A DNA stretch of 64,000 nt, taken from the IMG/VR virus record IMGVR_UViG_3300029911_000002, positions 124,001 to 188,000 of that record. One strand, written 5' to 3'. The notes under the pieces are model-generated. The model was not told where the DNA came from. It was given only the letters and a program-made list of their open reading frames with translations, and did not search any database. The stretch comes from a virus. Shown here one piece after another: positions 1 through 47,227 of this stretch (the first letter of the stretch is position 1; every line of letters starts with the position of its first letter). Made by a program: the position numbers and the translations under genes.

Positions 1-26
1 GTACCTAAAACTAAAACTGTTTCTCT

Positions 27-1510
27 GTTGAGACTCCCTTACGGATTTATATAAATAATATCTAATTCTAATTCTAAATCTGTATAATCACCGTTGAGAC
101 TCCCTTACGGATTTATATAAATAATATCTTATTTGAAAATCTTTACAAGAAAATCAGGGTTGAGACTCCCTTACGGATTTATATAAATAATATCTTACCA
201 ATTAAGAAAAAGAATTGATACCTTGTTAAGACTCCCTTACGGATTTATATAAATAATATCTTATTAATAGATGTGCTGGCACCACCTTCGTTGAGACTCC
301 CTTACGGATTTATATAAATAATATCTTTTGTATTTGAAATAATATCACTTCCTTTGTTGAGACTCCCTTACGGATTTATATAAATAATATCTTATATTAC
401 TATATTTATTAAATATGATAAGTTGAGACTCCCTTACGGATTTATATAAATAATATCTGAATCACTTTTTGTTTTACGTAGTAATTCGTTGAGACTCCCT
501 TACGGATTTATATAAATAATATCATCAAGAACTTCGGTTGCCTTTAATTCATTGTTGAGACTCCCTTACGGATTTATATAAATAATATCCTATAACCTCC
601 CTATTTTTTTCATCAACTGTTGAGACTCCCTTACGGATTTATATAAATAATATCATATAATCACTTCTTTTCCTGCTCTGCTTTGTTGAGACTCCCTTAC
701 GGATTTATATAAATAATATCATTGCACTAAAAATGTCATTAATAGGGTTCGTTGAGACTCCCTTACGGATTTATATAAATAATATCGCACTTTTCCCATT
801 TTTTCTGGCTACACTTGTTGAGACTCCCTTACGGATTTATATAAATAATATCATTTCTTCTTTGAATGATTTGTAGAAATATGTTGAGACTCCCTTACGG
901 ATTTATATAAATAATATCTAGCGTATTTGATTCTAATAAGCAATATGTGTTGAGACTCCCTTACGGATTTATATAAATAATATCACCGATTAACTCTTTT
1001 CTTAATTGACTATAGTTGAGACTCCCTTACGGATTTATATAAATAATATCTAGCGTATTTAATGTAAATAAGCAATATGTGTTGAGACTCCCTTACGGAT
1101 TTATATAAATAATATCAAAAGCGAATTCAACATTGACTGACGCTCGTTGAGACTCCCTTACGGATTTATATAAATAATATCGACAAATTAAATACATATA
1201 TATAACATATGTTGAGACTCCCTTACGGATTTATATAAATAATATCTGATATAATTGAAAGTCAATCATTTTATTTGTTGAGACTCCCTTACGGATTTAT
1301 ATAAATAATATCCTGTTATGTTAGAATAAGTAATTGCACTATGTTGAGACTCCCTTACGGATTTATATAAATAATATCAAATCTATTTAAAGAGATTGAA
1401 CAGCTAGAGTTGAGACTCCCTTACGGATTTATATAAATAATATCTAGCAGAACAGGATAGACATCAATTCATTGGTTGAGACTCCCTTACGGATTTATAT
1501 AAATAATATC
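27..1510 (-). CRISPR. CRISPR array, 23 repeats, truncated at window start
   Basis: There are 23 copies of a 36-bp repeat that begins GTTGAGACTCCCTTACGG on the plus strand. They start at 27, 93, 159, 225, 290, 356, 422, 488, 554, 619, 685, 751, 817, 883, 949, 1015, 1081, 1146, 1211, 1277, 1343, 1409 and 1475. Spacers are 29 or 30 bp and mostly unique. Bases 1-26 are part of another spacer, so the array continues to the left. All repeats look identical except the one at 225, which has A for G at its fourth base. Read on the minus strand, the same strand as the cas genes, the repeat contains a small stem TCC-GTAAG-GGA followed by GTCTCAAC, an 8-nt tail that fits the 5' handle left by Cas6 cleavage. 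I therefore infer minus-strand transcription, continuing out of cas6. The spacers at 919-948 and 1051-1080 are near-duplicates. Confidence 0.98.
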
Positions 1511-1611
1511 AGGATATTTATAATTAATTGATATTGAGTTATTTATAGTATATATTAATAAATAAAAATGAGTTATTAATATACGTATATCATTATATTT
1601 ATTCATTTTTA
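1511..1611 (-). promoter_or_regulatory. Candidate CRISPR leader between cas6 and the array
   Basis: About 100 bp of extremely AT-rich non-coding sequence separates the cas6 stop codon from the first (minus-strand) repeat, which is where a leader would sit if the array is transcribed with the cas genes. It contains a palindromic core, TATACGTATA, near 1580-1589, and outer inverted segments (AAAAATGA near 1565 and TCATTTTT near 1601). That structure could equally be a weak terminator or an attenuation site. The leader role is inferred from position only. Confidence 0.45.
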
Positions 1612-2316
1612 TCATACTAATTTATATTTATCTTTATTTTCTGTTTTATAAATTGTACCAAATCCAGAACCAGTTGATTGTCCTATACCTAAATTATAAA
1701 TTTTTTCTGCCACATCAGATGAACAAAATATACTAATGTGACATTGATTAGCTTCATTTTTGACATTTTTAACCATTATTTTCTTTACTTTATGTGAAGG
1801 ATGATTTATTATTTTAACATCAAAATCTTTTAAATTAATACCGTTATAAATTTTACTCAATTTTTTTATAATATGGTTTTTTACAATATATACGAAATCA
1901 GAATCATTTAAAGTTGAATAAGTATATTTCTTTTTATTAATATGCTTTCTAATAATAAATGGAGATAATGTTGCGAAATGATTCCATCCATTTATAAATT
2001 TTTCAAAGATAAAATTAATTTTATTAAATTTCATTCCCCAATTTAAATCTTGATTAGACATCACTCCACTTATTAAATCATTCAAAAATTCTTCATTTTT
2101 TGAAGTTACTACAATAATTCCTCCATTCTTAAATGATAAATGTAACTTATCTTCAGTTAGGTTTCCACCATATAAAGATGATATAGAGTAATCATTTTTA
2201 GAATCATGATATTTATTATTAACTCCAAGACATTTGTGTATATAATAATTAATATATGATTGATTCTTAATCGGTACCAATGTTTTATTTTCTGTAAATT
2301 CAATTTTTATTCTCAT
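1612..2316 (-). CDS. cas6: Cas6-family pre-crRNA endoribonuclease
   Basis: This 234-aa protein has the Cas6/RAMP signature. A C-terminal glycine-rich loop, GIGQSTGSGFG, lies at residues 210-220, just before the C-terminus as in Cas6. A histidine in a predicted N-terminal helix (YYIHKCLG, His27) is at the usual position of the catalytic His. Cas6 cuts the CRISPR transcript inside each repeat to release mature crRNAs and often stays bound to the 3' hairpin. The gene is last of three in a minus-strand operon, overlaps the upstream gene by 17 nt, and reads directly towards the array 100 bp downstream. The repeat carries a short stem followed by an 8-nt tail, the kind of substrate Cas6 uses. The family call is confident from the loop, position and length; the subtype is not resolved. 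Confidence 0.85.
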   Translation of the reverse strand: MRIKIEFTENKTLVPIKNQSYINYYIHKCLGVNNKYHDSKNDYSISSLYGGNLTEDKLHLSFKNGGIIVVTSKNEEFLNDLISGVMSNQDLNWGMKFNKINFIFEKFINGWNHFATLSPFIIRKHINKKKYTYSTLNDSDFVYIVKNHIIKKLSKIYNGINLKDFDVKIINHPSHKVKKIMVKNVKNEANQCHISIFCSSDVAEKIYNLGIGQSTGSGFGTIYKTENKDKYKLV

Positions 2317-3199
2317 ATTCTTCTAATTTATTAATATTAATATAACTATCTAAATCATTTTCAATCATTTCATCTTCATTTATCAAATCTTCTATCCAAA
2401 CAAATCCTCCATCTAATAACGTTGCACAACCTTTTGAATTTTTAATTTTGTCAACATATTCTGATGTTAAAGGAATTATTATAGAACCACTAATTTTTGT
2501 AATATTATCAATTCCTCTAATATTTGTTAATGTAGTTTTTGGATTTTGACCAATTGTTATTGCTGATTGATTTACAATACCAATAAGAAGATTTGCAATT
2601 GGAGTTTTATTATTTTTAACTAATTTTTTACAAAAAATTGTAAAATCAGAATTATCATTATATTGTTTAATGAAATTTGCAAATTTTATTTTGCTATTAT
2701 TTTTTATTTCATTATTAATATCTATAACTAATTTAGAACTACTATAATATGTAATAATCTCTTTTATTATATACATTGCAGGTTTTGATTTAACATCATA
2801 ACCTAATATATTATTAAATAAATTAATCATTTCTATAAATAGATCAGTAGTTAAATAACATTCTAGATTTTCCCAATAAATAAAACTTCTTTTTTTATCT
2901 CTATAGCTATCATAAGCAAATTTATTTGTTTGTATAAACTCATTCATATAACACATTTTACCACTAGATTTATTTAAAAATCTTGTTGTATCTATTTTTA
3001 TATAAGCTAAATTAGCTATATTAAATATATCTGATATAGGTTTAATTAATGTATCTCTATATGTTGGACTTGGACGTTCACCCATTAAAACATGCAGCAT
3101 GTTACTTATTTGATGAACACTTATACTAGGTTTTTGATTATTAGTTGCTTTTTCAAAAAATCCAGCATCTTTAAATGACAATTTTAAAAAATATTCCAT
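2300..3199 (-). CDS. Cas5-like (or other RAMP) subunit of a type I/IV-like effector
   Basis: The product is 299 aa and has no motif I can assign with certainty. It lies between the cas7-like and cas6 genes, the usual place of cas5 in type I operons (cas7-cas5-cas6). Visible features are a segment QISNMLHVLMGERPSP at residues 30-45, a basic, hydrophobic middle, and a motif GSIIIPLTSEYVDKIKNSKG near residues 238-257. A Cas5 protein would cap the 5' handle of the crRNA. It is longer than many Cas5 proteins (about 220-250 aa), so a Cas5/Cas8 merged role or a second Cas7-like role is possible. The start is 10 nt from the upstream stop and its 3' end overlaps cas6 by 17 nt, so the three are co-transcribed. 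The cas association is strong from context; the subunit identity is inference. Confidence 0.5.
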   Translation of the reverse strand: MEYFLKLSFKDAGFFEKATNNQKPSISVHQISNMLHVLMGERPSPTYRDTLIKPISDIFNIANLAYIKIDTTRFLNKSSGKMCYMNEFIQTNKFAYDSYRDKKRSFIYWENLECYLTTDLFIEMINLFNNILGYDVKSKPAMYIIKEIITYYSSSKLVIDINNEIKNNSKIKFANFIKQYNDNSDFTIFCKKLVKNNKTPIANLLIGIVNQSAITIGQNPKTTLTNIRGIDNITKISGSIIIPLTSEYVDKIKNSKGCATLLDGGFVWIEDLINEDEMIENDLDSYININKLEEYENKN

Positions 3200-3209
3200 A
3201 TTATTAGAA

Positions 3210-4283
3210 TTATTTAGCTTCTTTTTGAGATTTTAATTTAGCTTCTTTTTTTTCTTTTTTATCATCTTTAGCTTTCAATTTAGCATCTATTCTTTTTTTA
3301 ATTATAATAGATCTCTTATCTGACAATTCTATATCTAAAGTTTTTGCATTTTCAAAATCATATTCAGTATAAAAATTTTCATTTTCAAAATTTAAATTAT
3401 CTATAACATCTTTTGTTAATTCAATCCATCCATCAGAATTATTTTTTTTATCATTAAATACGTCATATACTAATTTAATTTTAAGTTTAGACGTAACAAC
3501 ACTAGATCCAGATTTATAAATATTCATTTTTAGCATTTTATATAATAGATTTTTTGTTAGTTCAACAACATCTGTATTGGATAATAAAAAACCATATTCT
3601 GGTAATTCAACAACACTATTTGTAATCCTATAATATTTTAATTCCGAATTAAATGATGGTAATCTTTTTTTCAATAATTCTGAATATAAAGGAAATAAAT
3701 CTGGATTGAATGCTAATCGATCTAAATTTTTAGAACAACTAATAAATTGCATTTGCATTAAATCAATATTACCATCAGTCTCATATGTTATATCTCCTAC
3801 AGTTTCTTTGTTAAATAATGAAGTATCACTTATTTTTTCACCACTAACTGTCATAAGTTCTATTTTTGATTTACAATTATTTGTTTGTTCAGCGTCAATT
3901 ATACATAAAACACTTTTTCTTCTAATTGTTTTATCAATCTCATCTTCATTCAATGCAAATAAATGACCTCTATTTATAATTGCAGGAGAAGCCAACATTG
4001 ACACAAGTAAATAATTATTATGCAATATATTTGGAGATTGAAATGGAATATCATCAATAAAAATATTATGTCTTAAACAATTACTAGAAATTTTTATTTT
4101 ATAATCATATTCACCATTACTTTTCTGATATATATTTTTTTTTGCAAATATTAAATTATTATCAGTTTCATACTTTCCACCACTAATTTCATTCCATATC
4201 CATTTTTGTCCATTACTATCACAGTTAACAACACCATTACCTTCTAATTCCATTTTAAATAAAATGTTCTTTACTTTTTTCAT
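3210..4283 (-). CDS. Cas7-like crRNA backbone protein
   Basis: This 357-aa protein is the first gene of the cas operon. It has features expected of a Cas7 backbone subunit: a segment ISSNCLRHNIF at residues 65-75, resembling the 'SSN(A/S)LRH' motif seen in several Cas7/Csf2-type proteins, and a glycine-containing insertion RGHLF at 105-109. The C-terminus is a highly charged tail (residues 320-357, Lys/Glu/Ala-rich) that is probably disordered. Cas7 polymerises along the crRNA spacer to form the surveillance filament. A TAnnTTTG promoter box lies 33-40 nt upstream. No large subunit, helicase-nuclease (Cas3) or adaptation gene is linked on this side, so the complex, if functional, would bind without its own nuclease. 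The family assignment is moderately confident from motif and operon position. Confidence 0.6.
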   Translation of the reverse strand: MKKVKNILFKMELEGNGVVNCDSNGQKWIWNEISGGKYETDNNLIFAKKNIYQKSNGEYDYKIKISSNCLRHNIFIDDIPFQSPNILHNNYLLVSMLASPAIINRGHLFALNEDEIDKTIRRKSVLCIIDAEQTNNCKSKIELMTVSGEKISDTSLFNKETVGDITYETDGNIDLMQMQFISCSKNLDRLAFNPDLFPLYSELLKKRLPSFNSELKYYRITNSVVELPEYGFLLSNTDVVELTKNLLYKMLKMNIYKSGSSVVTSKLKIKLVYDVFNDKKNNSDGWIELTKDVIDNLNFENENFYTEYDFENAKTLDIELSDKRSIIIKKRIDAKLKAKDDKKEKKEAKLKSQKEAK

Positions 4284-4315: not shown

Positions 4316-4323
4316 CAAAAGTA
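4316..4323 (-). promoter_or_regulatory. Bacteroidota-type -7 box for the cas operon
   Basis: The minus strand reads TACTTTTG, matching the TAnnTTTG -7 consensus of primary-sigma promoters in Bacteroidota. It is 33 nt upstream of the cas7-like start and lies in the short gap between the cas operon and the tandem array of small genes, so the cas genes can be transcribed independently. Confidence 0.5.
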
Positions 4324-4348: not shown

Positions 4349-4612
4349 TTAATTAAAAATATTATTCAATTTTTTCAATTTAATTTTTCTAATCTCATTT
4401 TTTCTATAAAAATAAGTATATAAATATTCTTCATCACGTTTAAAAGATGAATAAGCATTTTTATCATCAGATATCAAATACTGATAATCATCATCATAAT
4501 TAATAATAAAATGAACAATATAATATCTATCTTTATGATATATTGAATATGATGTTGTTAAATCTTTTTTACATAATAACTTATCTCCTACATTAAGATT
4601 CTGATTCTTCAT
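4349..4612 (-). CDS. Tandem-family small protein, copy 1 (promoter-distal)
   Basis: This is the last of fifteen tandem paralogues. The 87-aa product has the family layout: an N-terminal 'NxGDKLLCKKDL' motif, a variable aromatic middle around a conserved YYIV, and a C-terminal 'FYRKNEIRKIKLKKL' motif. The function is unknown. The layout suggests a small beta-barrel followed by a basic amphipathic helix (inference). Its first 20 nt overlap the end of the upstream copy in another frame. It ends just before the cas operon promoter. Confidence 0.85.
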   Translation of the reverse strand: MKNQNLNVGDKLLCKKDLTTSYSIYHKDRYYIVHFIINYDDDYQYLISDDKNAYSSFKRDEEYLYTYFYRKNEIRKIKLKKLNNIFN

Positions 4613-4859
4613 AAATTTTTTCTAATTTAATTTTTCTTTCTTCTTGTTTAGTATAAAAATGTTCAGACATCTCTTTTATGCTAAATGAAAATGGTAATAT
4701 TCTATCATTTTCATCATTAAAATAATAACAATATTCATAAGGACCGTATACTACCATAACAATATAATAATTATCAACATATAAATATTTATTTGCTCCA
4801 ACTAGAAGATTTTTTTTACATAATAATTTATCTTCATCATTAATATCCTGTTTCTTCAT
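4593..4859 (-). CDS. Tandem-family small protein, copy 2
   Basis: This 88-aa paralogue starts MKKQDINDEDKLLCKKNLL and ends FYTKQEERKIKLEKIYEESES. It departs from the family in having DED instead of VGD before the conserved KLLCKK. It overlaps copy 1 by 20 nt and copy 3 by 20 nt, so the same bases encode the EESES tail of one protein and the MKNQN start of the next. Function unknown. Confidence 0.85.
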   Translation of the reverse strand: MKKQDINDEDKLLCKKNLLVGANKYLYVDNYYIVMVVYGPYEYCYYFNDENDRILPFSFSIKEMSEHFYTKQEERKIKLEKIYEESES

Positions 4860-5112
4860 AAAGTTTTTCTAATTTTATTTTTCTCTCCTCTTGTTTAGTA
4901 TAAAAATGTTCATAAAAAAATCTAACGCTATATCTAAAAGAATAATATTTTTTTTTATCAAATTCTATATAATAACAATAATCAGTATTATTGTCAAATA
5001 ATTTAATATCATAAACAATATAATATTTATTTTTATTAAAACTTGCATATAATTCATTTAAATTTTTTTTACACAATAACTTATCACCTACATTAAGATT
5101 CTGATTCTTCAT
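4840..5112 (-). CDS. Tandem-family small protein, copy 3
   Basis: The 90-aa product has the full family signature: NVGDKLLCKKNL at residues 6-17, KYYIVYDIKLF in the middle, and FYTKQEERKIKLEKLYEETGY at the end. It has 20-nt overlaps with both neighbouring copies. No enzyme motif, signal peptide or membrane segment is visible. Confidence 0.85.
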   Translation of the reverse strand: MKNQNLNVGDKLLCKKNLNELYASFNKNKYYIVYDIKLFDNNTDYCYYIEFDKKKYYSFRYSVRFFYEHFYTKQEERKIKLEKLYEETGY

Positions 5113-5359
5113 AAAGTTTTTCTAATTTAATTTTTCTCTCTTCTTGTTTAGTATAAAAATGATTTAGTAATTCATTTTTATTTAAAAAATATGGATATAT
5201 TCCATTAGATTCATTAAATATACAGCAGGCAAAACCTTTAAATGAATCATTCAGAATTTTATGATAAATATAATATTTACATTCTATAAAATGTGTACTA
5301 TAATTAGCTATTAAATCTTTTTTACATAATATTTTATCACCTTCATTAAAATTATTCAT
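5093..5359 (-). CDS. Tandem-family small protein, copy 4
   Basis: This 88-aa copy belongs to a sub-group that starts MNNFN(E/D)GDKILCKKDL, shared only with the copy at 5584-5850. It ends FYTKQEERKIKLEKLYEESES. It overlaps its upstream neighbour by only 8 nt (ATGAATAA), exactly as the other MNNF copy does. This suggests that a two-gene segment was duplicated as a unit. Function unknown. Confidence 0.85.
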   Translation of the reverse strand: MNNFNEGDKILCKKDLIANYSTHFIECKYYIYHKILNDSFKGFACCIFNESNGIYPYFLNKNELLNHFYTKQEERKIKLEKLYEESES

Positions 5360-5603
5360 AAAGTTTTTCTAATTTGATTTTTCTTTCTTCTTGTTTAGTA
5401 TAAAAATACTGATGTAAATATGATTCACTAAAAAATGGTAATATTGTATTGAATTCTGATCTTAAATCATAAAAATATTCACTATAATCAGTTGAAAAAT
5501 TTTTAATATCATCTACATAATAATATTTATCTTTAATAAATATTTTATCAATCTCCTCTTTACATAATAATCTATCTCCTACATTAATATTCTGTTTCTT
5601 CAT
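5352..5603 (-). CDS. Tandem-family small protein, copy 5
   Basis: At 83 aa this is the shortest intact copy, with MKKQNINVGDRLLCKEEI at the start and FYTKQEERKIKLEKLYE at the end. The C-terminal EES tail found in neighbouring copies is missing, which shortens the overlap with the downstream gene to 8 nt. Acidic residues replace part of the usual CKKDL motif. Function unknown. Confidence 0.85.
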   Translation of the reverse strand: MKKQNINVGDRLLCKEEIDKIFIKDKYYYVDDIKNFSTDYSEYFYDLRSEFNTILPFFSESYLHQYFYTKQEERKIKLEKLYE

Positions 5604-5850
5604 AAAGTTTTTCTAATTTTAATTTTCTAATCTCATTTTTCATAAAAAAATGACCAACTAAATCATGTTCAGTTAAATAATATGAAAATATATTATTAGA
5701 TTCACTTATATAACAGCAGTAAAAATCATTAAAAATACCACTAAACATATTATCATGAAAAATATAATAATCACCTTCTATAATATGGTTACCATAATAA
5801 GTTAAATCCTTTTTACATAATATTTTATCACCATCATTAAAATTATTCAT
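5584..5850 (-). CDS. Tandem-family small protein, copy 6
   Basis: This 88-aa copy is the closest visible relative of the copy at 5093-5359 (MNNFNDGDKILCKKDL, later CC(Y/I)xSES). Its C-terminal motif is FFMKNEIRKLKLEKLYEETEY, with KNE replacing the common KQE. It overlaps the upstream gene by 8 nt and the downstream gene by 20 nt. Confidence 0.85.
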   Translation of the reverse strand: MNNFNDGDKILCKKDLTYYGNHIIEGDYYIFHDNMFSGIFNDFYCCYISESNNIFSYYLTEHDLVGHFFMKNEIRKLKLEKLYEETEY

Positions 5851-6118
5851 AATTTTCTATTTTATCTAATTTTCTTTTTCTTTCTTCTTGTTTAGTATAA
5901 AAATATTCATATAAATCTTCTTCACCACAAAATAATATTAAATTATCATCATCATCAAATAAATAATAATAATAAAAATCCACACCGCTTATAGTATTAG
6001 AAATAATATAAATTGATATCATAGCATAATATTTGTCTATTTTGAAATTTTTATTTATATTAATTATATTATATTTACATAATAAATTATCTCCTACTTT
6101 AAGATTTTGATTCTTCAT
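5843..6118 (-). CDS. Tandem-family small protein, copy 7
   Basis: The 91-aa product starts MKNQNLKVGDNLLCKYNI and ends FYTKQEERKRKLDKIENYE. The middle is unusually rich in Tyr and Asp (VDFYYYYLFDDDDN). Its end differs from the common KLEKLYEE and it overlaps the downstream copy by only 8 nt. Function unknown. Confidence 0.85.
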   Translation of the reverse strand: MKNQNLKVGDNLLCKYNIININKNFKIDKYYAMISIYIISNTISGVDFYYYYLFDDDDNLILFCGEEDLYEYFYTKQEERKRKLDKIENYE

Positions 6119-6374
6119 AAAGTTTTTCTAATTTGATTTTTCTTTCTTCTTGTTTAGTATAAAAATATTCACAAAATTCTCCGTAATATCTAAAATTAAC
6201 AGGTTGATATTGTTCACATATAAGCATATAAATATAATCAGTATAATTATTATTAGTTGGAGTAATTTCACAAACATAATAATATTCAAATTCAATAAGA
6301 TATGTACTTTCTGAATTAAAAAGATTTTTTTTGCATAATAATTTATCTCCTACATTAATATTCTGCTTCTTCAT
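6099..6374 (-). CDS. Tandem-family small protein, copy 8
   Basis: The 91-aa product has MKKQNINVGDKLLCKKNLF at the start and FYTKQEERKIKLEKLYEESKS at the end. The variable core contains EYYYVCEITPT where others have KYYIVxDI. Both ends overlap neighbours by 20 nt. Function unknown. Confidence 0.85.
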   Translation of the reverse strand: MKKQNINVGDKLLCKKNLFNSESTYLIEFEYYYVCEITPTNNNYTDYIYMLICEQYQPVNFRYYGEFCEYFYTKQEERKIKLEKLYEESKS

Positions 6375-6624
6375 AAAGTTTTTCTAATTTAATTTTTCTT
6401 TCTTCTTGTTTAGTATAAAAATATTTACAAAATTCTTTTTCATCACAACATACCAATGATTCGAAATCGTCTAAATAATAGAAATAATAATCTTTACGAG
6501 CTACATTAATAATATCAATATATTTAATATAATAATATTTACCTTTTATAATATATGTAGAATTTGATAAAAAACTAATCTTACATAATAACTTATCTCC
6601 AATATTAATATTCTGCTTCTTCAT
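6355..6624 (-). CDS. Tandem-family small protein, copy 9
   Basis: The 89-aa product starts MKKQNINIGDKLLCKISF and carries the clear core motif IIKGKYYYIKYIDI. It ends FYTKQEERKIKLEKLYEEAEY. Overlaps of 20 nt at both ends keep the shared dual-coding junction. Function unknown. Confidence 0.85.
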   Translation of the reverse strand: MKKQNINIGDKLLCKISFLSNSTYIIKGKYYYIKYIDIINVARKDYYFYYLDDFESLVCCDEKEFCKYFYTKQEERKIKLEKLYEEAEY

Positions 6625-6889
6625 TTTTTAATTTTTCTAATTTAATTTTTCGTACTTCATTTTTAGTATAAAAATAATCATCAAATTCTTCTATATAATA
6701 GAAATCTTTATTGGTATCATCTATTATATTATATTTATAATAAAGTACATCAATGTCAGCACTCAAAAGTACATCAAAGTCAGCACTCAAAATTATATAT
6801 TCTACACCTTTCGTTAATGTCAGATATGATTTATTAACATCAATTTTACACAATAATTTATCTCCTATATTAAAATTTTGATTCTTCAT
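6605..6889 (-). CDS. Tandem-family small protein, copy 10
   Basis: I place the start at the ATG giving MKNQNFNIGDKLLCK (94 aa). The frame stays open further upstream, but that would run through the neighbouring copy and is not family-like. The core holds an internal duplication, LSADFDVLLSADIDVL, encoded by a near-perfect 24-bp direct repeat around 6744-6791. It ends FYTKNEVRKIKLEKLKNEEAEY. Confidence 0.8.
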   Translation of the reverse strand: MKNQNFNIGDKLLCKIDVNKSYLTLTKGVEYIILSADFDVLLSADIDVLYYKYNIIDDTNKDFYYIEEFDDYFYTKNEVRKIKLEKLKNEEAEY

Positions 6890-7157
6890 GAAGTTTTTGT
6901 AATTTAATTTTTCTAGTTTCGTTTTTTGTGTAAAAATAAGTATAAATATCTTCATATGAACAAACAATATTCATTTTTTCATTTCCTATGGTCATATAAT
7001 AATATGCATTATCAATATTAAAAAATTTATTATCAATATTAAAAAATTTAATATCATAAACAGTATAACATGAATTTAGTATATAATATTCAAAATTTGG
7101 ATGAAATATACGTTTACATATTAATTCATCTCCTATATTAAGATTCTGTTCCTTCAT
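6870..7157 (-). CDS. Tandem-family small protein, copy 11
   Basis: The 95-aa product starts MKEQNLNIGDELICKRIF and ends FYTKNETRKIKLQKLHEESKF. Its core has a small internal duplication, KFFNIDNKFFNIDN, showing slippage-type expansion within the variable part. It has 20-nt overlaps on both sides. Function unknown. Confidence 0.83.
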   Translation of the reverse strand: MKEQNLNIGDELICKRIFHPNFEYYILNSCYTVYDIKFFNIDNKFFNIDNAYYYMTIGNEKMNIVCSYEDIYTYFYTKNETRKIKLQKLHEESKF

Positions 7158-7407
7158 TACCCAACTTTTTTAATTTAATATTCCTAACTTCCTTCTCAGT
7201 GTAAAAAAATTCATAAATATCTTTTTCATACTGAACTTCTACCTTTACATTATTATCATCAATTATATAAATAAAAGTATAATATTCAGTCTCAAATAAA
7301 CTATCACTTATAATATATTCGTTCCCTTTATGAATAGATATCTTATGATGAATATAATCTTTTTTGCATAATAATTTATCTCCTACTTTAAAATTATGAT
7401 CCTTCAT
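7138..7407 (-). CDS. Tandem-family small protein, copy 12
   Basis: The 89-aa product starts MKDHNFKVGDKLLCKKDY, has HKGNEYII in the core, and ends FYTEKEVRNIKLKKLGNEGTES. It is more diverged than the central copies. It overlaps the upstream copy by 14 nt, an intermediate length that still preserves the frame offset (8, 14 and 20 are all 2 modulo 3). Confidence 0.83.
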   Translation of the reverse strand: MKDHNFKVGDKLLCKKDYIHHKISIHKGNEYIISDSLFETEYYTFIYIIDDNNVKVEVQYEKDIYEFFYTEKEVRNIKLKKLGNEGTES

Positions 7408-7687
7408 TTATTTCATTTAATTTCATGCTTCTAATTTCATTTTTAGTATAAAAATAAGTATATAAATATCTTTCCATCCAAAATGAATATCGTTCATTAT
7501 TATCATCAATTATATAATAAAAATATTCATTATAATCCACAAAAATATCATTAATTAATCTAATTTCATCAACAACATAATATTTACCTTTTTTAAAAAA
7601 TAATAATGAAGTATTATTAGATACCAATGATTTTAAATCATTTTTGCATAATAATTTATCTCCAATATTAAGATTCTGTTTATCCAT
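7394..7687 (-). CDS. Tandem-family small protein, copy 13
   Basis: The 97-aa product starts MDKQNLNIGDKLLCKNDL, has FKKGKYYVVDEIRL in the core and ends FYTKNEIRSMKLNEINEGS. It has an insertion of about eight residues before the core compared with the shorter copies. It overlaps the upstream copy by 8 nt. Function unknown. Confidence 0.83.
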   Translation of the reverse strand: MDKQNLNIGDKLLCKNDLKSLVSNNTSLLFFKKGKYYVVDEIRLINDIFVDYNEYFYYIIDDNNERYSFWMERYLYTYFYTKNEIRSMKLNEINEGS

Positions 7688-8003
7688 TTATTTTCTGCAA
7701 TTTCTTATTTCTTAATTCTTTTTTTTCATAAAAATAATCATGAAAAAAACTTTCAGACCAAAATGAACATGATTTATTCATTTCTCCATTTATATAATAA
7801 ATATAATCATCTTGTCCAAATATATGATCACATGTATTCTTATAAGCATATTTATCATCTATTATTTTTATATCAACAATAGAATAATATTTATCTTTTA
7901 TAAAATGAGAAAATATTATTAATTTATCATCACTAATTAAATTTTGAAATAAATCTTTTTTACATAATAACTTATCTCCTAAATTAATATTCTTTTTCGT
8001 CAT
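7680..8003 (-). CDS. Tandem-family small protein, copy 14 (longest)
   Basis: At 107 aa this is the longest copy. It starts MTKKNINLGDKLLCKKDLF, has FIKDKYYSIVDIKIID in the middle, and ends FYEKKELRNKKLQKING. The extra length lies in two loops of the variable region. It overlaps the next copy by 20 nt. Function unknown. Confidence 0.83.
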   Translation of the reverse strand: MTKKNINLGDKLLCKKDLFQNLISDDKLIIFSHFIKDKYYSIVDIKIIDDKYAYKNTCDHIFGQDDYIYYINGEMNKSCSFWSESFFHDYFYEKKELRNKKLQKING

Positions 8004-8250
8004 TTTTTAATTTGTTTAATTTTATTTTTCTTTCTTCTTGTTTAGTATAAAAAACATCATAAAAATCAACTTTACGTAGATATAATAAATTTTTGCTATT
8101 TTTTTCTTTTAATGAATAAAAATTACTACTATAAAATATGTTAGTATTAACTATTTCATATTCTCTATCTTTATAAAAAACTTCAGTATAATTATAATAA
8201 CTATTTTTGCATAATAATTTATCTCCAATATTAATATTCTGTTTATCCAT
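7984..8250 (-). CDS. Tandem-family small protein, copy 15 (promoter-proximal)
   Basis: This is the first intact gene of the array on the minus strand: 88 aa, MDKQNINIGDKLLCKNSY at the start and FYTKQEERKIKLNKLKNDEKEY at the end. Its start overlaps by 8 nt the stop of a broken sixteenth copy, the same overlap seen between intact copies. Function unknown. Confidence 0.85.
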   Translation of the reverse strand: MDKQNINIGDKLLCKNSYYNYTEVFYKDREYEIVNTNIFYSSNFYSLKEKNSKNLLYLRKVDFYDVFYTKQEERKIKLNKLKNDEKEY

Positions 8251-8305
8251 AAAGTGGTTCTAATTTTATTTTTCTATCATGAACTGTTGCTAATGTAAAG
8301 TAATT
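8243..8305 (-). pseudogene. C-terminal remnant of a sixteenth tandem-family copy
   Basis: The minus strand encodes NYFTLATVHDRKIKLEPLYG followed by a stop, matching the 'YFYTKQEERKIKLEKLYEE' ending of the family. An in-frame stop lies just upstream, so only the last 20 codons survive. The stop overlaps the next start by 8 nt as in intact neighbours. It marks the decayed upstream edge of the array. Confidence 0.7.
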
Positions 8306-8433
8306 CTAAACTAATTTCATTGTTTTTCACCGAAATTAGAAACTCTGACTCCAACTGTATTCAATTTTCCATTCAATATCAAATATAATCATTTTATTCC
8401 GTATTATATGTATTTTTTAAATTTTTCTTTCAT

Positions 8434-11655: not shown

Positions 11656-11979
11656 ATGAAAGAGATAGAAGAATGGTTTTATGATTGTAAATTTATTTAT
11701 TTTAGTTTCAATTTAGATATTGAGCCTACAAATAAAATAAATGAATTTAGAATAATAGCAGAATCTGAAATACCTAAGATACCAAATAAATATATATCTG
11801 GATTTTATGGATATGTAGAAAAAGGAATATCATATTGTTGGTTAGATTTAATAAATTGTAACATTATCATGACTGATTATGATCATAGTATTATACCATC
11901 TGTATTTGAGTTTAATAGAACTGATTGGATTAAGAATAAAAGAAAGAAAAAATTAGAAAATATAATTAATAATGTATAA
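11656..11979 (+). CDS. Hypothetical protein with C-terminal RKKKLENI motif
   Basis: The product is 107 aa. It has no recognised domain; the middle reads IPNKYISGFYGYVEKGISYCWLDLINC, mostly beta-type. The C-terminus, WIKNKRKKKLENIINNV, matches the RKxKLxxL ending shared by many small proteins in this window. It starts a plus-strand run of small genes. A motif TTATCTTTATATAA directly upstream may be its promoter. The last 8 nt overlap the next gene. Confidence 0.7.
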   Translation: MKEIEEWFYDCKFIYFSFNLDIEPTNKINEFRIIAESEIPKIPNKYISGFYGYVEKGISYCWLDLINCNIIMTDYDHSIIPSVFEFNRTDWIKNKRKKKLENIINNV

Positions 11980-12256
11980 AGTTGGCGATAAAGTTTTTTG
12001 CATAAAGGACTGTTACAGAGAGTTTGATAAACTATTGATTTTTAAAAAAAATTATTCATATTTTATTTACGAGAAAAAAGATTATAATAATATTATTGTA
12101 ATAAAATACACTAATGATGGTTATGGTTGTGATGGTGATGGTTGGTATTCATTTTGGTTCACCCCAAGAATGGAAGATTATGATTTTGATACATATTTTT
12201 GTGATTTAAAAGAATTTAGAAAAAATAAATTAGAAAAAATAATTAAAGAATGTTAG
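11972..12256 (+). CDS. Dispersed member of the tandem small-protein family
   Basis: The 94-aa product has MYKVGDKVFCIKDCYREF at the start and FRKNKLEKIIKEC at the end, the same layout as the fifteen-copy array at 4.3-8.3 kb (VGDK..CKKD, aromatic core, RKxKLxxL). It overlaps the preceding gene by 8 nt, the overlap length also seen within the array. The core has a Gly/Asp-rich loop, DGYGCDGDGWYS. Function unknown. Confidence 0.75.
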   Translation: MYKVGDKVFCIKDCYREFDKLLIFKKNYSYFIYEKKDYNNIIVIKYTNDGYGCDGDGWYSFWFTPRMEDYDFDTYFCDLKEFRKNKLEKIIKEC

Positions 12257-12330: not shown

Positions 12331-12630
12331 ATGAAAAATAAAGAAGAAATATTAATTTGTAGTTGTCATTCAACTGATCATCAACTTATATTTTTATATG
12401 AAGAAGATATAACAGAATCAGGTAAAATTGATCCTATATGTTATGCTCATGTATTATTAAATAGAAGATCATTTTGGAATAGATTAAAATATGGTATTAA
12501 ATATATTTTTGGTTATAGATGTAGGTATGGCGCATTTGATGAATTTATTTTTAAACCTGAAGATGCTTATAAAATTCAAAGATTAGCTAATTATTTAAAA
12601 AGTGAGTTAGAAAATGCGTCCAAAGATTAA
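12331..12630 (+). CDS. Conserved-looking phage hypothetical protein with CSCHS motif
   Basis: This 99-aa protein starts MKNKEEILICSCHSTDHQ. It contains FWNRLKYGIKYIFGYRCRYGAFDEF near residues 50-75. The CxCHSxxHQ start and the FGYRCRYG segment are more strongly patterned than in its neighbours, and I recall similar small proteins in other large phages, but not a function. Cys and His residues could bind a metal (inference). It overlaps the next gene by 17 nt. Confidence 0.7.
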   Translation: MKNKEEILICSCHSTDHQLIFLYEEDITESGKIDPICYAHVLLNRRSFWNRLKYGIKYIFGYRCRYGAFDEFIFKPEDAYKIQRLANYLKSELENASKD

Positions 12631-12868
12631 TGAATATTATTATTGCAAGAAAGCAATGAAATTTTTATTTAATAATGACTATTTTGAAAAAGGAAAACAT
12701 TATAAAGTTTCAGATCGTCATCATGGTGACGTAGTTATAATTTCTAATATTGGTGAAATGGTGTTCTCATTAGAGAATCATATGAGTTATTTGTATTTTT
12801 ATGAATATTTTGGAACTATTAAAGAAGAAAGAAAAGAAAAATTAAATAAGTTATTAAATGCATCCTAA
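12614..12868 (+). CDS. Tandem small-protein family, dispersed copy (84 aa)
   Basis: MRPKINEYYYCKKAM at the start, FEKGKHYKVSDRHHGDVVII in the core and YFGTIKEERKEKLNKLLNAS at the end fit the family. The typical VGDKLLCKK start has become INEYYYCKK. It forms a pair with the next gene, overlapping by 11 nt; both begin M(R/H)PKINE. Function unknown. Confidence 0.75.
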   Translation: MRPKINEYYYCKKAMKFLFNNDYFEKGKHYKVSDRHHGDVVIISNIGEMVFSLENHMSYLYFYEYFGTIKEERKEKLNKLLNAS

Positions 12869-13136
12869 GATTAATGAATTATATTTTTGTAAAAAGACAT
12901 TAAATACAACTCTTAATAATTTTCCTGAATTAGAAAAAGGAAAATATTATAAATTAACTCATATATATGATAGTGTTATTACAATTATACTTAATGATAA
13001 AATTAGTGAAATATCATTTTCATTAGATGATGAATATGATGAATATAGTGTTTATTTTTATTTTTATGAATATTTTGGAGATAATCAAGATGCAAGAAAA
13101 TATAAATTAAATAAGTTATTAAATGATAATGTATAA
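12858..13136 (+). CDS. Tandem small-protein family, dispersed copy (92 aa)
   Basis: This is the sister of the preceding gene: MHPKINELYFCKKTL, then LEKGKYYKLTHIYDS and YFYEYFGDNQDARKYKLNKLLNDNV. The pair arose by local duplication. It overlaps the following gene by 14 nt. Function unknown. Confidence 0.75.
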   Translation: MHPKINELYFCKKTLNTTLNNFPELEKGKYYKLTHIYDSVITIILNDKISEISFSLDDEYDEYSVYFYFYEYFGDNQDARKYKLNKLLNDNV

Positions 13137-14842: not shown

Positions 14843-15142
14843 ATGATTGATTTTAAATATAGAGAATATTATGATGAAAAATGCATAAAATTAATTGAAT
14901 CTATAGGCTATAAAAATAAAACAAATAATTTCATGCTATTTGAACAAGATGGCTATATTAATATAAATTTTTATATAATAAATGATTGGGATAAAATAAT
15001 TTCATTTAATAGGTACTACCAAATAACAAATGAAATTAAAGTCTATACAAAAGAATTTTTTAATTTTGAAGATTTTAAAAAATTTATAATTGAATATCAT
15101 ATAAAAATATTTAGAAAATTAAAATTAAAAAATTTGATATGA
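14843..15142 (+). CDS. Small hypothetical protein with C-terminal FRKLKLKNL motif
   Basis: I use the ATG at 14843 (99 aa, MIDFKYREYYDEKC) rather than the in-frame TTG two codons earlier. It is a beta-rich protein ending FRKLKLKNLI, another carrier of the recurrent basic C-terminal motif. Its stop overlaps the next small gene by 4 nt. Confidence 0.65.
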   Translation: MIDFKYREYYDEKCIKLIESIGYKNKTNNFMLFEQDGYININFYIINDWDKIISFNRYYQITNEIKVYTKEFFNFEDFKKFIIEYHIKIFRKLKLKNLI

Positions 15143-16425: not shown

Positions 16426-18072
16426 TTAGATTTGTTGGGTAACAATTCTAACTTTACTTTTACAATTTCCTAAGTGATAGTCTATTAACACATCATCTTT
16501 TAATAACATGTTCCGATACTTCAGTTGGTTGGTCTTTCTATATAATTGAATCCAATTATCCTGTGTTGTGTTGATATTCTCACCAAGTAGATAAAACAAT
16601 TTCTCTTGATTTATTAAATTCATACACGGGTATATAGAACTACCTTTTTTAAATTTATTCATCCCTCTACTGCCAATTTCAATGCTAGATGAAATTGGGT
16701 CAAAGAAGGTATGTATCATATTTCCGATAAAACTACTATAAGCAGCGTTTACCTCTATTTTATTTAAGCCATTTTCATTACAATATTTAGTAATCAAGTT
16801 GGTCGTTAAAGTTCGATGCCATAGATTTTTAGTTTGTTTATTTAACTCTTTACCTACTGTATCTTTTGATTGTTTATCTTTAAAATCAAGATCTTCCATC
16901 ACAAAATTATACACTCTGAAGTGCTTACACATCATGAATATTTGTTTCCAGACTTCTTTTATTTCATGTTTTCTTTTATCATTTTGTTTAACTTGTTTCT
17001 TGTCTGAAGAGCTTAAACTTAATTTCGTACTTAACTCAGATAAAATAAAGCACTGAACATGAATTAATTTCTGCTCATCATTAATGTCATCAAATATACT
17101 TAAACCGATAAACTTTGGATTTAAATCAACCGCCATGTAACGATTTGATAGCTTACCTACTTTTTTTCTATCATTTTGTTCATTCTTATGCTTTATATAA
17201 ATTTCCTTTTTACTTTCTTTGCTTAACGCAAGTAACTGTTCTTTCTTGCAGTCCAATTGATTGAATTCATAACCATTTAATAACTCTTCGTCATAAGATA
17301 AATGAATATATTCGTTTGATAATCTTATGGTCACTGGCATTAAATTCAGGTTAGACATTTCTTGAATTTTAATTAATTTATTTTTTTGTTTTTTGCCGTT
17401 AGTTTTAAAAGTGATATCAATTTTAAAATCTCTTGATGGTTTGAAAGTGATTTTATTATTAATTAGATCGAAATCAATTTTTCTGTTACCTTTTTCACAG
17501 GCACGTCCGATTAAATAAATTCCTAATTTACGTTTTGATGTGAACTCTAATTTCTTGAGCCCTAACCTTTCTATTAATTCTTTCTTATATTCAAGAAATT
17601 TCTTGTAATCTGTTGATTTAATATCAATCTTTGTTAGCTGTAGCTCAGTTTTATAAATATTTAAATGTAATTTCGTGATTTCACGTTGTAGTGCTTTACC
17701 ACCAAATGTAATATTATTGTTTATATTTCGTTTAATTCTTGCTAGATTATTTATTAAATTATATTTTTTACGTTTTTCCTTTTTTGTTTTGAATTCGTTA
17801 TTATCAAGACATTTCTGAATATCAATTATCTTTTTTGATTTCTTTTCTTTGGTTGCTTCGTGCTGTTTAAGTTTTGTTTTCACATCAGAAATACAACAAT
17901 CAAACATGGATTTGTCTAACACAGAATTATTTAATAGTGATTTTATATAATCATCATCAATTAAATCAAAATGATTATAAAGAGTATAAAACAAACCAGT
18001 GTAGTCAGAACAATATTGATCTATTATCTCTGCTTGTAAGCACTCTTTTATTTTTAATTTAATAGTTAACAT
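16426..18072 (-). CDS. tnpB: TnpB-like RNA-guided nuclease family protein
   Basis: The 548-aa protein has the three RuvC catalytic positions in order: Asp316 in RYMAVDLNPKFIGLSIFD, Glu393 in FVMEDLDFK, and Asp458 in FFDPISSSIEIGSRG. The N-terminal half is a long Lys-rich helical and oligonucleotide-binding-like region. The CxxC...CxxC zinc ribbon usual between RuvC II and III in TnpB is absent. TnpB nucleases use an RNA from the element's end to cut DNA next to a short motif and so preserve the element. Only 33 bp lie between its stop and the element end, so any guide RNA must overlap the 3' end of the coding sequence. It is related to the TnpB at 49736-51337 but clearly diverged. Confidence 0.8.
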   Translation of the reverse strand: MLTIKLKIKECLQAEIIDQYCSDYTGLFYTLYNHFDLIDDDYIKSLLNNSVLDKSMFDCCISDVKTKLKQHEATKEKKSKKIIDIQKCLDNNEFKTKKEKRKKYNLINNLARIKRNINNNITFGGKALQREITKLHLNIYKTELQLTKIDIKSTDYKKFLEYKKELIERLGLKKLEFTSKRKLGIYLIGRACEKGNRKIDFDLINNKITFKPSRDFKIDITFKTNGKKQKNKLIKIQEMSNLNLMPVTIRLSNEYIHLSYDEELLNGYEFNQLDCKKEQLLALSKESKKEIYIKHKNEQNDRKKVGKLSNRYMAVDLNPKFIGLSIFDDINDEQKLIHVQCFILSELSTKLSLSSSDKKQVKQNDKRKHEIKEVWKQIFMMCKHFRVYNFVMEDLDFKDKQSKDTVGKELNKQTKNLWHRTLTTNLITKYCNENGLNKIEVNAAYSSFIGNMIHTFFDPISSSIEIGSRGMNKFKKGSSIYPCMNLINQEKLFYLLGENINTTQDNWIQLYRKTNQLKYRNMLLKDDVLIDYHLGNCKSKVRIVTQQI

Positions 18073-18198: not shown

Positions 18199-18459
18199 TG
18201 ACATTTCACCTTTGCTCATCCATATATACCATCTATTATAATCTTTAACAGTAAAATGAATATTATCATCACAAATCAAAAATTTTAATATTGAATTATC
18301 ATAAAATAATATTGTAGCATAATAATTATCTACATTAATAGATGAAATTTTAACATTTTCTAAATATACAAGTAAAATATCTAACAAAGGATAATAATCA
18401 TATTTTATATGATTATGCCATAAAAACCCGTAATATATTTTTTTTAATAACTTATTCAT
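18199..18459 (-). pseudogene. 5' fragment of the gene split by the TnpB element
   Basis: The fragment encodes MNKLLKKIYYGFLWHNHIKY ... LLDILLVYLENVKISSI ... WYIWMSKGEM before running into the element, where a stop follows one codon later. It matches the N-terminal half of the neighbouring intact paralogue (LDILVVYLENVKI ... WNAWMAYGTM). The truncated 87-aa product may still be made. Its start overlaps the stop of the paralogue by 1 nt. Confidence 0.85.
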
Positions 18460-18905
18460 TATTTTTTAATATTTTTTAATTTTTGTTTTCTAAGTAATTT
18501 AATAGGTAAGCAATCAGAAAAATCTTCAATTTCTACATTATCTATTTTATGATTTTTAGATTTTTCATGATTTAGAATTAATTTTTTATATTTATAATAA
18601 ACTTCACAAGATGGTTGTTTTTTATTCCATTTCATTATTCTTCCATTACTAAATTTCATTGTTCCATAAGCCATCCAAGCATTCCATCTAGAATTCCAAA
18701 AAGTTAATACTGAATTATCAGAGAAAGTTATTACACAATTACCTATTATAATTTCAATATTAATAATTTTAACATTTTCTAAATATACAACTAAAATATC
18801 TAATGCATGATAGGTATCATACAATTTCATAGGAGTATATAAAAAGTAATAAAAATTCTTAAATATTTTTAAAATATTTTTTATTATTTTATTTAACATA
18901 TTCAT
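18459..18905 (-). CDS. Hypothetical protein, intact paralogue of the split gene
   Basis: The 148-aa protein has a basic hydrophobic N-terminus (MNMLNKIIKNILKIFKNFYY), a beta-type middle (VKIINIEIIIGNCVITFSDNSVLTFW) and a Lys-rich C-terminus ending LLRKQKLKNIKK, one more RKxKLxxI ending. It gives the reference sequence that shows the gene upstream of it was interrupted. Function unknown. Confidence 0.75.
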   Translation of the reverse strand: MNMLNKIIKNILKIFKNFYYFLYTPMKLYDTYHALDILVVYLENVKIINIEIIIGNCVITFSDNSVLTFWNSRWNAWMAYGTMKFSNGRIMKWNKKQPSCEVYYKYKKLILNHEKSKNHKIDNVEIEDFSDCLPIKLLRKQKLKNIKK

Positions 18906-30992: not shown

Positions 30993-31674
30993 AAAATATA
31001 CATTAAATGAAACATATGAATTATCTGGAAAGAATTCATTTTTAACTTATTTGCAGATAGTTTCAAATCATGATTATCATTTTATTTCGAATGATACATA
31101 TAGAAAATTATACAAATATCATGTATTTTTTTCAACTGAAACTATAACAGGAATAGAAGATTATGTAGATATTTTTAAATATAAACACTCATTAGCATCA
31201 GCATATGAAATATTATTACAAATAAAAGATAATAAATTAGCATTCTTTTTTGGTATAAAAGAAAATTCTACATTAAGATATGGATTTTTAGATTTAGATA
31301 CACAAAGGAGTTATGTTGTTGGAGAATTTATATTTACTAAAGAATTTTTTGGATCAATATCTAAATATAAATCTATGCAGTTTGTTAATAAAATAATACA
31401 GAATACTGATGCTAAAAAATTACCAATACTATCAAAGATAAAACAAGATTGTGAACAATTTTACAAAGGTAAGAAGAAAACAAAAGTAGAAATATCAGAC
31501 AATAAAGTGATTATTTATATAACAAGAGATCAATTCACTGATGATGATATAAATATGAATCGTCCATTCAGATCATTAGATAATTGGGCTTCTAAAAAAA
31601 TGTGGAGAAACAAAGTTGAATGTAGCGTTGATGATGAAGGCGATCCAATAAAATTTATATTGATAGTGAAATGA
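30976..31674 (+). CDS. Hypothetical protein with MITNFKKYTLNE start
   Basis: I take the ATG at 30976, giving 232 aa, over one five codons upstream, because MITNFKKYTLNET is similar in style to the targeting-like starts of its neighbours. The middle (HVFFSTETITGIEDYVDIFKY; LAFFFGIKENSTLRYGFLDLDTQ) looks like an alpha/beta domain. The C-terminal part has RPFRSLDNWASKKMWRNKVECSV. No family is recognised. The stop overlaps the next start (ATGA). Confidence 0.6.
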   Translation: MITNFKKYTLNETYELSGKNSFLTYLQIVSNHDYHFISNDTYRKLYKYHVFFSTETITGIEDYVDIFKYKHSLASAYEILLQIKDNKLAFFFGIKENSTLRYGFLDLDTQRSYVVGEFIFTKEFFGSISKYKSMQFVNKIIQNTDAKKLPILSKIKQDCEQFYKGKKKTKVEISDNKVIIYITRDQFTDDDINMNRPFRSLDNWASKKMWRNKVECSVDDEGDPIKFILIVK

Positions 31675-31934
31675 AATACTTAAAAAGATTTGAAAATAAG
31701 GAAAAAGAATATAATATTGATGATTATATAATTGTTCATAATAATATATATGTAGGAACTAGTAAAATATTTAAAATTGTTGATATTGTAAAAAATGCAT
31801 ATTATCCATATAACGTTATTGGAGTAAATGGAGATATTCATTTTTTAGAATATAAGGACATAAAAAGAAAATTATCTAAAAAAGAAATTGAAAAATATGA
31901 ATTAGATAATATATCAAATAAATTTAACATATGA
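31671..31934 (+). CDS. MKYLKRFE/KFNI-type small protein (87 aa)
   Basis: This protein starts MKYLKRFENKEKEYNIDDYI and ends ISNKFNI. Between them is a small beta-type domain (IIVHNNIYVGTSKIFKIVDIV). The first eight residues recur in at least eight nearby proteins with unrelated middles. The stop and next start overlap in ATATGA, which also encodes the last Ile. A function as a virion-packaged protein is inferred from resemblance to T4 capsid-targeting peptides. Confidence 0.65.
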   Translation: MKYLKRFENKEKEYNIDDYIIVHNNIYVGTSKIFKIVDIVKNAYYPYNVIGVNGDIHFLEYKDIKRKLSKKEIEKYELDNISNKFNI

Positions 31935-32269
31935 AATATTTAAAAAGATTTGAAAATATTAATAATAATCCTGAAATTGGGGATTATATTATTATAGATA
32001 AACTTAATAATATACTAGGTCCAAGTTATGATGATATTTTTTATTTTTTGAATAATAATATTGGCAAAGTTGTTGGATTTGGAAATGTATATAACGGAAA
32101 AGGTATTAAAATCAAATTTTTTAATATACCAAAGAATCTAAATACTCATTTTAATCCTGATCATATAAAGATTTTTCCAATGAATTCTATTTTAGCATTT
32201 GGTAAAAACAAAGAAACTGTGAAAGAAGAAGCTGAAATACAACGTAATATAAAGAAATTTAACTTATGA
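31931..32269 (+). CDS. MKYLKRFE/KFNL-type small protein (112 aa)
   Basis: It starts MKYLKRFENINNNPEIGDYI and ends IKKFNL. The middle is an SH3-like looking stretch (GDYIIIDKLNN ... GKVVGFGNVYNGKGIKIKFF), similar in layout to the preceding gene. It overlaps neighbours by 4 nt on both sides, in a chain of four MKY genes. Function unknown. Confidence 0.65.
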   Translation: MKYLKRFENINNNPEIGDYIIIDKLNNILGPSYDDIFYFLNNNIGKVVGFGNVYNGKGIKIKFFNIPKNLNTHFNPDHIKIFPMNSILAFGKNKETVKEEAEIQRNIKKFNL

Positions 32270-32613
32270 AATATATTAAAACATTTGAATCAATATCAAA
32301 AGGAATCAATAATATAACTACTATTGATTGCTCTGGAGATAATTTAACTGAATTACCTGAATTACCAGATAGTTTAATTACTTTATATTGTAATAATAAT
32401 TTTTTAACTAAAATTAAAAAATTACCTCCTAATTTGAAACATTTAAAATGTTCTCATAATCATAATTTATCTGAGTTACCTATATTACCAGAAACTATGA
32501 CTGAATTACGTTGCTATAACACTAAATTACCTTATAATAATCTAATTGAATATAAAAAATGGTTAGATAAAGAGCATCCTGAAATATCAAAATCTAAACA
32601 ATTTAATTTATGA
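32266..32613 (+). CDS. Leucine-rich-repeat-like protein with MKYIKTFE start
   Basis: The 115-aa protein starts MKYIKTFESISKGINNITTI and ends KQFNL. The middle has several short leucine-rich-type repeats: ITTIDCSGDNLTELPELPDS, LITLYCNNNFLTKIKKLPPN, LKHLKCSHNHNLSELPILPE and MTELRCYNTKL. Each has the L-x-x-L-x-C-x-x-N pattern of bacterial LRR proteins. LRR domains bind other proteins; the target is unknown. The LRR core between the shared tags shows that the tags are attached to diverse domains. Confidence 0.75.
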   Translation: MKYIKTFESISKGINNITTIDCSGDNLTELPELPDSLITLYCNNNFLTKIKKLPPNLKHLKCSHNHNLSELPILPETMTELRCYNTKLPYNNLIEYKKWLDKEHPEISKSKQFNL

Positions 32614-40126: not shown

Positions 40127-40443
40127 TGAAATATATTAAAACTTTTGAAAATGAATTATATAATGAACCAACATATTGGTTATTGCCGACTGATGATAGA
40201 TTTGAAAAATCTTTAAAACAAATAAAATGTCCTAATAATAATATTAAATTTTTTTTAAATAATAATAGAATTAAAAATATTAAATATGTATTCATTTGTT
40301 ATTCACCATATAATAAACAATGGGAATGGAATTCATATAAAGGTAAATTACTTGACGATTATCTTGAAGAAAATAATTATAAATTTGGTGGACATATAAA
40401 TATGAATGAATTAGAATTAATTGCTGATAAATTTAACATATAA
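40126..40443 (+). CDS. MKYIKTFE/KFNI-type small protein, pair member 1
   Basis: The 105-aa product starts MKYIKTFENELYNEPTYWLL. It has PTDDRFEKSLKQIKCPNNNIKFFL and YVFICYSPYNKQWEWNS, and ends IADKFNI. The next gene is a clear paralogue. The start overlaps the stop of the large structural gene (TAATG), tying it to the late operon. The T4-like targeting start suggests a virion-associated product (inference). Confidence 0.65.
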   Translation: MKYIKTFENELYNEPTYWLLPTDDRFEKSLKQIKCPNNNIKFFLNNNRIKNIKYVFICYSPYNKQWEWNSYKGKLLDDYLEENNYKFGGHINMNELELIADKFNI

Positions 40444-40447
40444 CTAT

Positions 40448-47224: not shown

Positions 47225-47227
47225 AAT

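Follow-up and report, generated by a model that had tools for sequence, protein, structure and literature searches.

A tandem array of small predicted-barrel proteins in a virus genome shares its C-terminal motif with dozens of unrelated proteins

In bacteriophage T4, a capsid targeting sequence (CTS) joins diverse, fast-changing small counter-defence internal proteins by one short tag (PMC3012670). The other described systems closest to the locus reported here are the SH3-like small barrels (Tudor, chromo-barrel, KOW), the type I Thoeris inhibitor Tad3 and type I-Fv CRISPR-Cas. We analyzed a window of 64,000 nucleotides (positions 124001-188000 of the 214,510-bp virus record IMGVR_UViG_3300029911_000002, here G000), in which 15 intact genes for small proteins lie in a tandem array beside cas genes; coordinates without a prefix are window positions. 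Rather than being a signature of one family, the conserved C-terminal end of these proteins is a motif common to dozens of unrelated proteins. We propose that the array is a birth-and-death cluster of early proteins sharing a genome-wide docking tag, a reading that could well be right and could equally well be wrong.

A C-terminal motif across the genome

In L026 (record G003), RKxKLxKL stands at the end of many genes that lie side by side and differ in kind. Within G000 the density of the motif over the last 22 residues was 18 times that in the interior of proteins, and 80 of the 288 small proteins carried it, against 4.9 expected from shuffled tails. By the chosen pattern, carriers made up 85/385 genes in G000, 99/582 in G001, 43/132 in G003 and 17/77 in G002, with none among the 60 genes of G004. 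As these counts rest on a chosen pattern, unsupervised motif discovery was run on the last 30 residues of one protein per family, for 478 small-protein families of four related phages. The top motif was [LI]-R-K-x-K-[LI]-x-K-[LI]-N, found in 112 families (23%) with a log-likelihood ratio of 796, compared with 203 for shuffled and 234 for mid-protein controls, and the resulting profile had a false-positive rate of 4/1236. Its invariant arginine lies 8-16 residues from the end in 224/240 carriers. The conserved positions cluster on one face of a helix (permutation p = 0.03), giving mild support for a binding surface. A partial literature search for a C-terminal motif shared among phage proteins returned nothing fitting.

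The last 26 residues were then removed from 205 carriers and the remaining N-terminal parts were clustered with phmmer. This gave 83 clusters, one a barrel superfamily of 87 and the other 82 including transmembrane, cysteine-rich, zinc-ribbon-like and helicase-like proteins. When 82 carriers from outside the barrel family, themselves selected by the motif, were aligned, the arginine and lysine were invariant at a mean identity of 8%. One carrier is a homologue of Tad3 (Pfam PF25185) at L048:12930-13514 (G001 92930-93514); the match (E = 3e-34) covers residues 2-125 of 194, and the C-terminal extension ends SFIRLQKLKALK. Searching G000 with PF25185 gave no match, and the array proteins do not match Tad3. 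Another carrier, a DUF6794 protein by sequence and Pfam scan, ends NKIRKFKLRKLNKLYEE. In the model of the carrier at 14843-15142 the elements run helix, five strands, helix, an order unlike that of the array protein.

Neighboring genes overlap, with 62% of carriers running into the next gene on their strand, so the tail might have acted at the DNA level. Codons at the motif follow genomic usage (AGA for arginine, 0.82 against 0.78; TTA for leucine, 0.69 against 0.71), codon identity in the array ends is no higher than in the core, and the tag is retained by the carriers, about one in four, that have no gene close downstream, which together show selection on the protein. Conservation of the ends at the DNA level was rejected on the codon use at the motif and the lack of extra codon identity. 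No replacement of the arginine by lysine was seen in 27 array copies chosen by position.

G000 encodes a UvsW-type helicase and a family-B DNA polymerase, and the nearest named matches of these genes are in the huge phages LR756501-LR756504, followed by Lak phages, which puts G000 in the vicinity of the Mahaphage clade. For clade members larger than 634 kb, Bacteroidetes are the predicted hosts (PMC7162821). Unsupervised discovery on 50-kb samples per phage recovered variant tails in two 640-kb huge phages: R-K-x-[KI]-I-[EN]-[NE]-L in LR756504 (log-likelihood ratio 327; controls 181 and 172) and R-[DN]-x-K-[IL]-x-x-[IL]-[LG] in LR756502 (391; controls 168 and 171), the latter poorer in lysine (e.g., RNNKLESIGI). 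No related tails were found in 50-kb samples of LR756501, LR756500 and Chryseobacterium phage MA9V-2, and profile counts gave none in stretches of Lak-A1 and T4. A core pattern R-x-x-K-L-x-x-L drifting by lineage would be expected of a tag co-evolving with its receptor, and is no proof of one.

The array: conservation, predicted structure and turnover

A preliminary description, made by a reader of the letters alone, had reported 15 intact genes and one remnant between 4349 and 8305, conserved ends around a fast-varying core, more members at 12.0-13.1 kb and an uncharacterized family. All of this was borne out, and the coordinates were correct; what had been missed was that the C-terminal end is not private to the family. 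The open reading frames (ORFs) encode 83-107 aa, lie on the minus strand between 8250 and 4349, and overlap or abut their neighbors. Mutual matches between the 15 paralogues (E = 1e-57 to 1e-7) exclude chance. Their alignment has 10 invariant columns, a start pattern MKxQNxNVGDK, an N-terminal end VGDKLLCKK and a C-terminal end FYTKQEERKIKLEKL, with mean identities between copies of 70% at the N-terminal end, 23% in the core and 59% at the C-terminal end. Short internal tandem duplications were read in the cores of two copies, KFFNIDNKFFNIDN in 6870-7157 and a repeated LLSAD in 6605-6889. A hidden Markov model (HMM) of the array found 29 places in G000 with E values of up to 1, which makes the family bigger than was visible to that reader; the three members confirmed at 12.0-13.1 kb are among the features in Table 1. 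The barrel family is new: Pfam, PHROGs and NCBIfam gave no match above cut-off, 50,697 records of named phages gave 0 matches, no relative was found in cellular genomes, known inhibitors gave no sequence match, and scans with additional queries gave no new arrays.

Structure prediction and a Foldseek comparison had been put forward as checks. An AlphaFold2 model of an array copy, built with 43 family members (pLDDT 84.6, pTM 0.69), has predicted strands at residues 11-14, 18-20, 23-26, 31-39, 47-53 and 56-61, forming a small barrel that is followed by a short helix and then by a 17-residue helix coinciding with the conserved C-terminal end. The best Foldseek matches (Tudor, chromo-barrel, KOW and viral small barrels) were weak and none was significant (E at or above 0.03). 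The array protein is thus a predicted SH3-like small barrel, of the five- or six-stranded kind, with a weak fold assignment.

In the diverged relative G001 (330 kb) an array lies in the same place, between a DinG-like helicase gene and cas7, made up of 12 intact copies plus a pseudogene, with two divergent genes upstream, showing that copy number and content turn over; comparing copy number among relatives, another check proposed at the outset, thus revealed variation between phages. By our own comparison, the window remnant is a decayed form of the divergent genes, which are intact in the relative (L024:3406-3889; one ends ILATIHDRKIKLKILNED), and the G001 pseudogene resembles the window copy 6870-7157. 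In a tree of the G000 and G001 copies the two phages are intermixed; orthologous pairs are few, and branch lengths are close to one change per site. In G002 three copies are followed by a different tandem family, whose tail, RRKLEKLYE, is still similar. Seven other contigs were identical to the window over 12.3 kb and were uninformative on copy number. The evolution of the array is birth-and-death. The Nei-Gojobori ratio of nonsynonymous to synonymous change was 1.08 in the core against 0.09-0.51 in flanking control genes; under composition-aware maximum likelihood (codon frequencies modelled), the synonymous distance (dS) was saturated for most pairs and several flanking genes, and so a ratio near 1 was not taken as evidence of positive selection.

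A second gene set and the CRISPR-Cas neighborhood

Motif discovery returned a second motif, [ND]-[AST]-[NK]-K-[FY]-N-[IL], at the extreme C-terminus of proteins (65 families, log-likelihood ratio 424). Members of this set (class B, as distinct from the class A of the array tag) usually also start MKYIKTFE and end NKFN[LI]; 43 G000 genes have both of these ends. Only 2 genes across the four phages have both tail types, and the two classes lie in separate runs in G000. A 190-member family that seemed to mix the two tags proved an artefact of a shared N-terminal tag, and once both ends had been trimmed off a single weak A-B link was left. Over the whole G000 record about 60 late-type genes have the MKYIKTFE start together with an NKFNL/NKFNI end; other class-B examples in the window lie at 40126-40840 and 46514-49345.

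The pattern TTTA(A)TATATA was found upstream of 22/36 class-B-led units and 1/48 class-A-led units (p = 7e-10), and also before several large virion-type genes; on the opposite strand it occurred too, in 12/36 class-B units. TAnnTTTG, the Bacteroidota promoter (-7) box, was found upstream of 15/48 class-A-led and 3/36 class-B-led units (p = 0.015). These promoter-like patterns suggest that class A is early and class B late. TTTA(A)TATATA is a candidate late promoter element in G000-G003, mostly 15-45 nt before the start codon. The MKYIKTFE start resembles the T4 CTS, and class-B genes may possibly encode dozens of capsid-targeted proteins; the array proteins have no CTS-like N-terminal start, which belongs to class B.

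The array adjoins cas7-cas5-cas6 on the same strand and ends 65 nt upstream of cas7, just where it had been placed by the preliminary description. Its suggestion of read-through transcription found no support: cas7 has a promoter-like box of its own, an intrinsic terminator lies between array and cas7 in G001, and family members are scattered far from cas genes, all of which make the CRISPR-Cas link weak. The family is not obligately associated with cas genes, given its dispersed members and G004, where a related Cas3-Cas7-Cas5-Cas6 locus occurs with no tags and no array-family members on the record.

The phage-borne type I locus itself (window 1-4283 and G000 120686-122983, or L041:686-2983) comprises Cas7, Cas6, a protein placed where Cas5 would be expected and a CRISPR array; an HD-helicase Cas3 lies on the far side of the array. 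The locus has relatives in G001 and G004. The best match of Cas7 was Cas7fv, below cut-off, and no Cas8 or Cas11 was recognizable in the locus. Between the window (2300-4283) and L024, identity is 53% for Cas7 and 50% for Cas5, as against 85% for Cas6 and 88% for the helicase, so that the array together with cas7 and cas5 makes up a single fast-diverging block. By reading, the CRISPR spacers at 919-948 and 1051-1080 are nearly identical (TAGCGTATTTGATTCTAATAAGCAATATGT, TAGCGTATTTAATGTAAATAAGCAATATGT), a serine-recombinase-like gene lies beside a TnpB-like gene as an IS607-type pair (49736-51972), and a second TnpB-like gene lies at 16426-18072.

Table 1. Coordinates of features in the window.
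Feature	Position	Strand	Remarks
Tandem array, 15 intact genes	4349-8250	-	SH3-like barrel (predicted) plus C-terminal tag helix; ORF list, alignment, HMM, model
Array genes, first eight	4349-4612, 4593-4859, 4840-5112, 5093-5359, 5352-5603, 5584-5850, 5843-6118, 6099-6374	-	
Array genes, last seven	6355-6624, 6605-6889, 6870-7157, 7138-7407, 7394-7687, 7680-8003, 7984-8250	-	
C-terminal tag helix of modelled copy	6105-6155	-	Predicted; residues 74-90, EERKIKLEKLYEES; holds invariant R and K
Decayed 16th copy (divergent), 3' end only	8251-8305	-	Reads NYFTLATVHDRKIKLEPLYG (sequence read by eye)
Promoter-like element TATATTTG	8380-8387	-	Fits Bacteroidota -7 box TAnnTTTG (pattern match only); upstream of first array gene
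Promoter-like element TACTTTTG	4316-4323	-	Fits TAnnTTTG; between array and cas7; similar element before cas7 in L024
Two small leader ORFs, 42 and 52 aa	8434-8720	-	42-aa orthologue precedes array in L024
Dispersed family member with tag	11972-12256	+	Tag EFRKNKLEKIIKEC
Two dispersed family members with tag	12614-13136	+	12614-12868 and 12858-13136
Unrelated tag carrier	14843-15142	+	FRKLKLKNLI; alpha-beta5-alpha model; last helix, residues 75-98, holds tag
Unrelated tag carrier	18459-18905	-	LLRKQKLKNIKK; orthologues in G001 and G002
Three further small tag carriers	42096-42658	+	
Run of four class-B genes	31671-33392	+	MKYIKTFE-type start, KFNL/KFNI end

Interpretation and comparison with known systems

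Because the motif closes about one fifth of all proteins of the phage, and most of these have unrelated sequences, we suggest that it acts as a shared docking tag. The array would then be a cluster of small, probably early two-part proteins: an SH3-like barrel whose highly variable core and loops would be the probable effector surface, perhaps acting on varied targets, and a C-terminal helix with [LI]-R-K-x-K-[LI]-x-K-[LI]-N as the docking tag. During infection the tag may recruit diverse early host-takeover and counter-defence proteins to a single shared partner, either a phage hub or a host hub. A wider scheme with two addresses is more tentative, and somewhat more apt to fail than to hold: the helix tag would lead early proteins to the common partner and MKYIKTFE...NKFN[LI] would mark late, probably virion, proteins, new effectors including known anti-defence proteins would join by acquiring a tag, and the early tag would exist in lineage-specific forms across huge-phage lineages. 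Several points weigh against the docking proposal. Early and late were assigned from promoter-like patterns only, and most class-A units have neither pattern; one large family, with 87 of the 205 carriers, supplies part of the motif count; phmmer may have missed distant homology between some of the 83 clusters; and the helix of barrel proteins may pack on the barrel and be structural.

The tag might instead be a C-degron or other fate signal, leading to removal by a protease or to a cell location and not to docking at a functional hub. Its tight position, its occurrence mostly on putatively early proteins and its lineage-specific drift, which fits a co-evolving receptor of any kind, agree with this; recognition of known C-degrons usually depends on the final few residues, which vary here, and we consider a fate signal unlikely. 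It is quite improbable that there is no tag at all, the carriers being remote homologues in one superfamily with the same structural end helix and the array a plain paralogue expansion. The large barrel superfamily and the helix placed directly after the barrel in the array model speak for such homology, yet it must accommodate 82 other clusters with Tad3, DUF6794, zinc-ribbon-like, helicase-like and transmembrane proteins among their members, a second modelled carrier with a different order of elements, and an arginine and lysine kept invariant, albeit in motif-chosen sequences, where little else is conserved.

The model drawn from the preliminary description is a positively selected array for anti-defence or recognition diversity, functionally tied to the neighboring CRISPR-Cas. 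It is supported in part, by the variable core, by copies that turn over between two phages at the same cas-adjacent site, and by the Tad3 homologue among the tag carriers, with which a host-takeover or anti-defence role fits; the tie to CRISPR-Cas is not supported, and with dS saturated, members dispersed far from cas, a separate promoter-like box, a terminator in the relative, and the G004 cas locus lacking both tags and family members, the explanation as a whole is very doubtful. That the conserved ends are a DNA feature, either a recombination seam for cassette shuffling or an A-rich start region of the next gene, would suit the many overlapping carriers and the fact that Bacteroidota start translation without Shine-Dalgarno sequences, from a Kozak-like context (PMC6847099). 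It is highly improbable given motif codons that vary as in the rest of the genome, ends without extra codon identity, tags kept where no close gene follows, an arginine never exchanged for lysine in the position-chosen copies, and the lysine-poorer variant of LR756502. Hardly credible is a role as accessory subunits of the neighboring type I effector: the genes do lie next to cas7 in two phages, and no Cas8 was found, but their copy number is far above the need of a complex, many relatives lie elsewhere, and G004 has its Cas3-Cas7-Cas5-Cas6 without any member.

The function of most huge-phage genes is not known, and an early docking tag on about one fifth of them, if real, would be a handle on all of these at once. 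It would predict that tagged proteins act with or at one partner, which could be sought with a single peptide, and would mark orphan proteins that carry the tag as candidates for a part in host takeover or counter-defence. The array would be a natural library in which one barrel fold combines a varied surface with an unchanging docking helix.

Among known systems, the SH3-like small barrels are like the array protein in predicted strand order and barrel; the array protein differs in its extra C-terminal tag helix, and no ligand residues of those barrels were identified in it. Tad3 has, in its G001 homologue, the same end tag as the array proteins, which is the one feature common to them. The window CRISPR-Cas locus is like type I-Fv in the sub-threshold match of its Cas7 and in the presence of Cas6 and Cas3, and the array genes differ from this neighbor in being separate genes with a separate promoter-like element. 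A short tag shared by diverse counter-host proteins has a precedent in T4; for a C-terminal tag on putatively early proteins none was found in the literature searched. Like the carriers described here, the T4 CTS internal proteins are diverse small proteins united only by a short shared tag. In T4 the tag stands at the N-terminus and serves late in infection, to package proteins into the prohead core, whereas the tag here is C-terminal and found on genes with early-type promoter boxes, separate from the CTS-like class B of the same phage.

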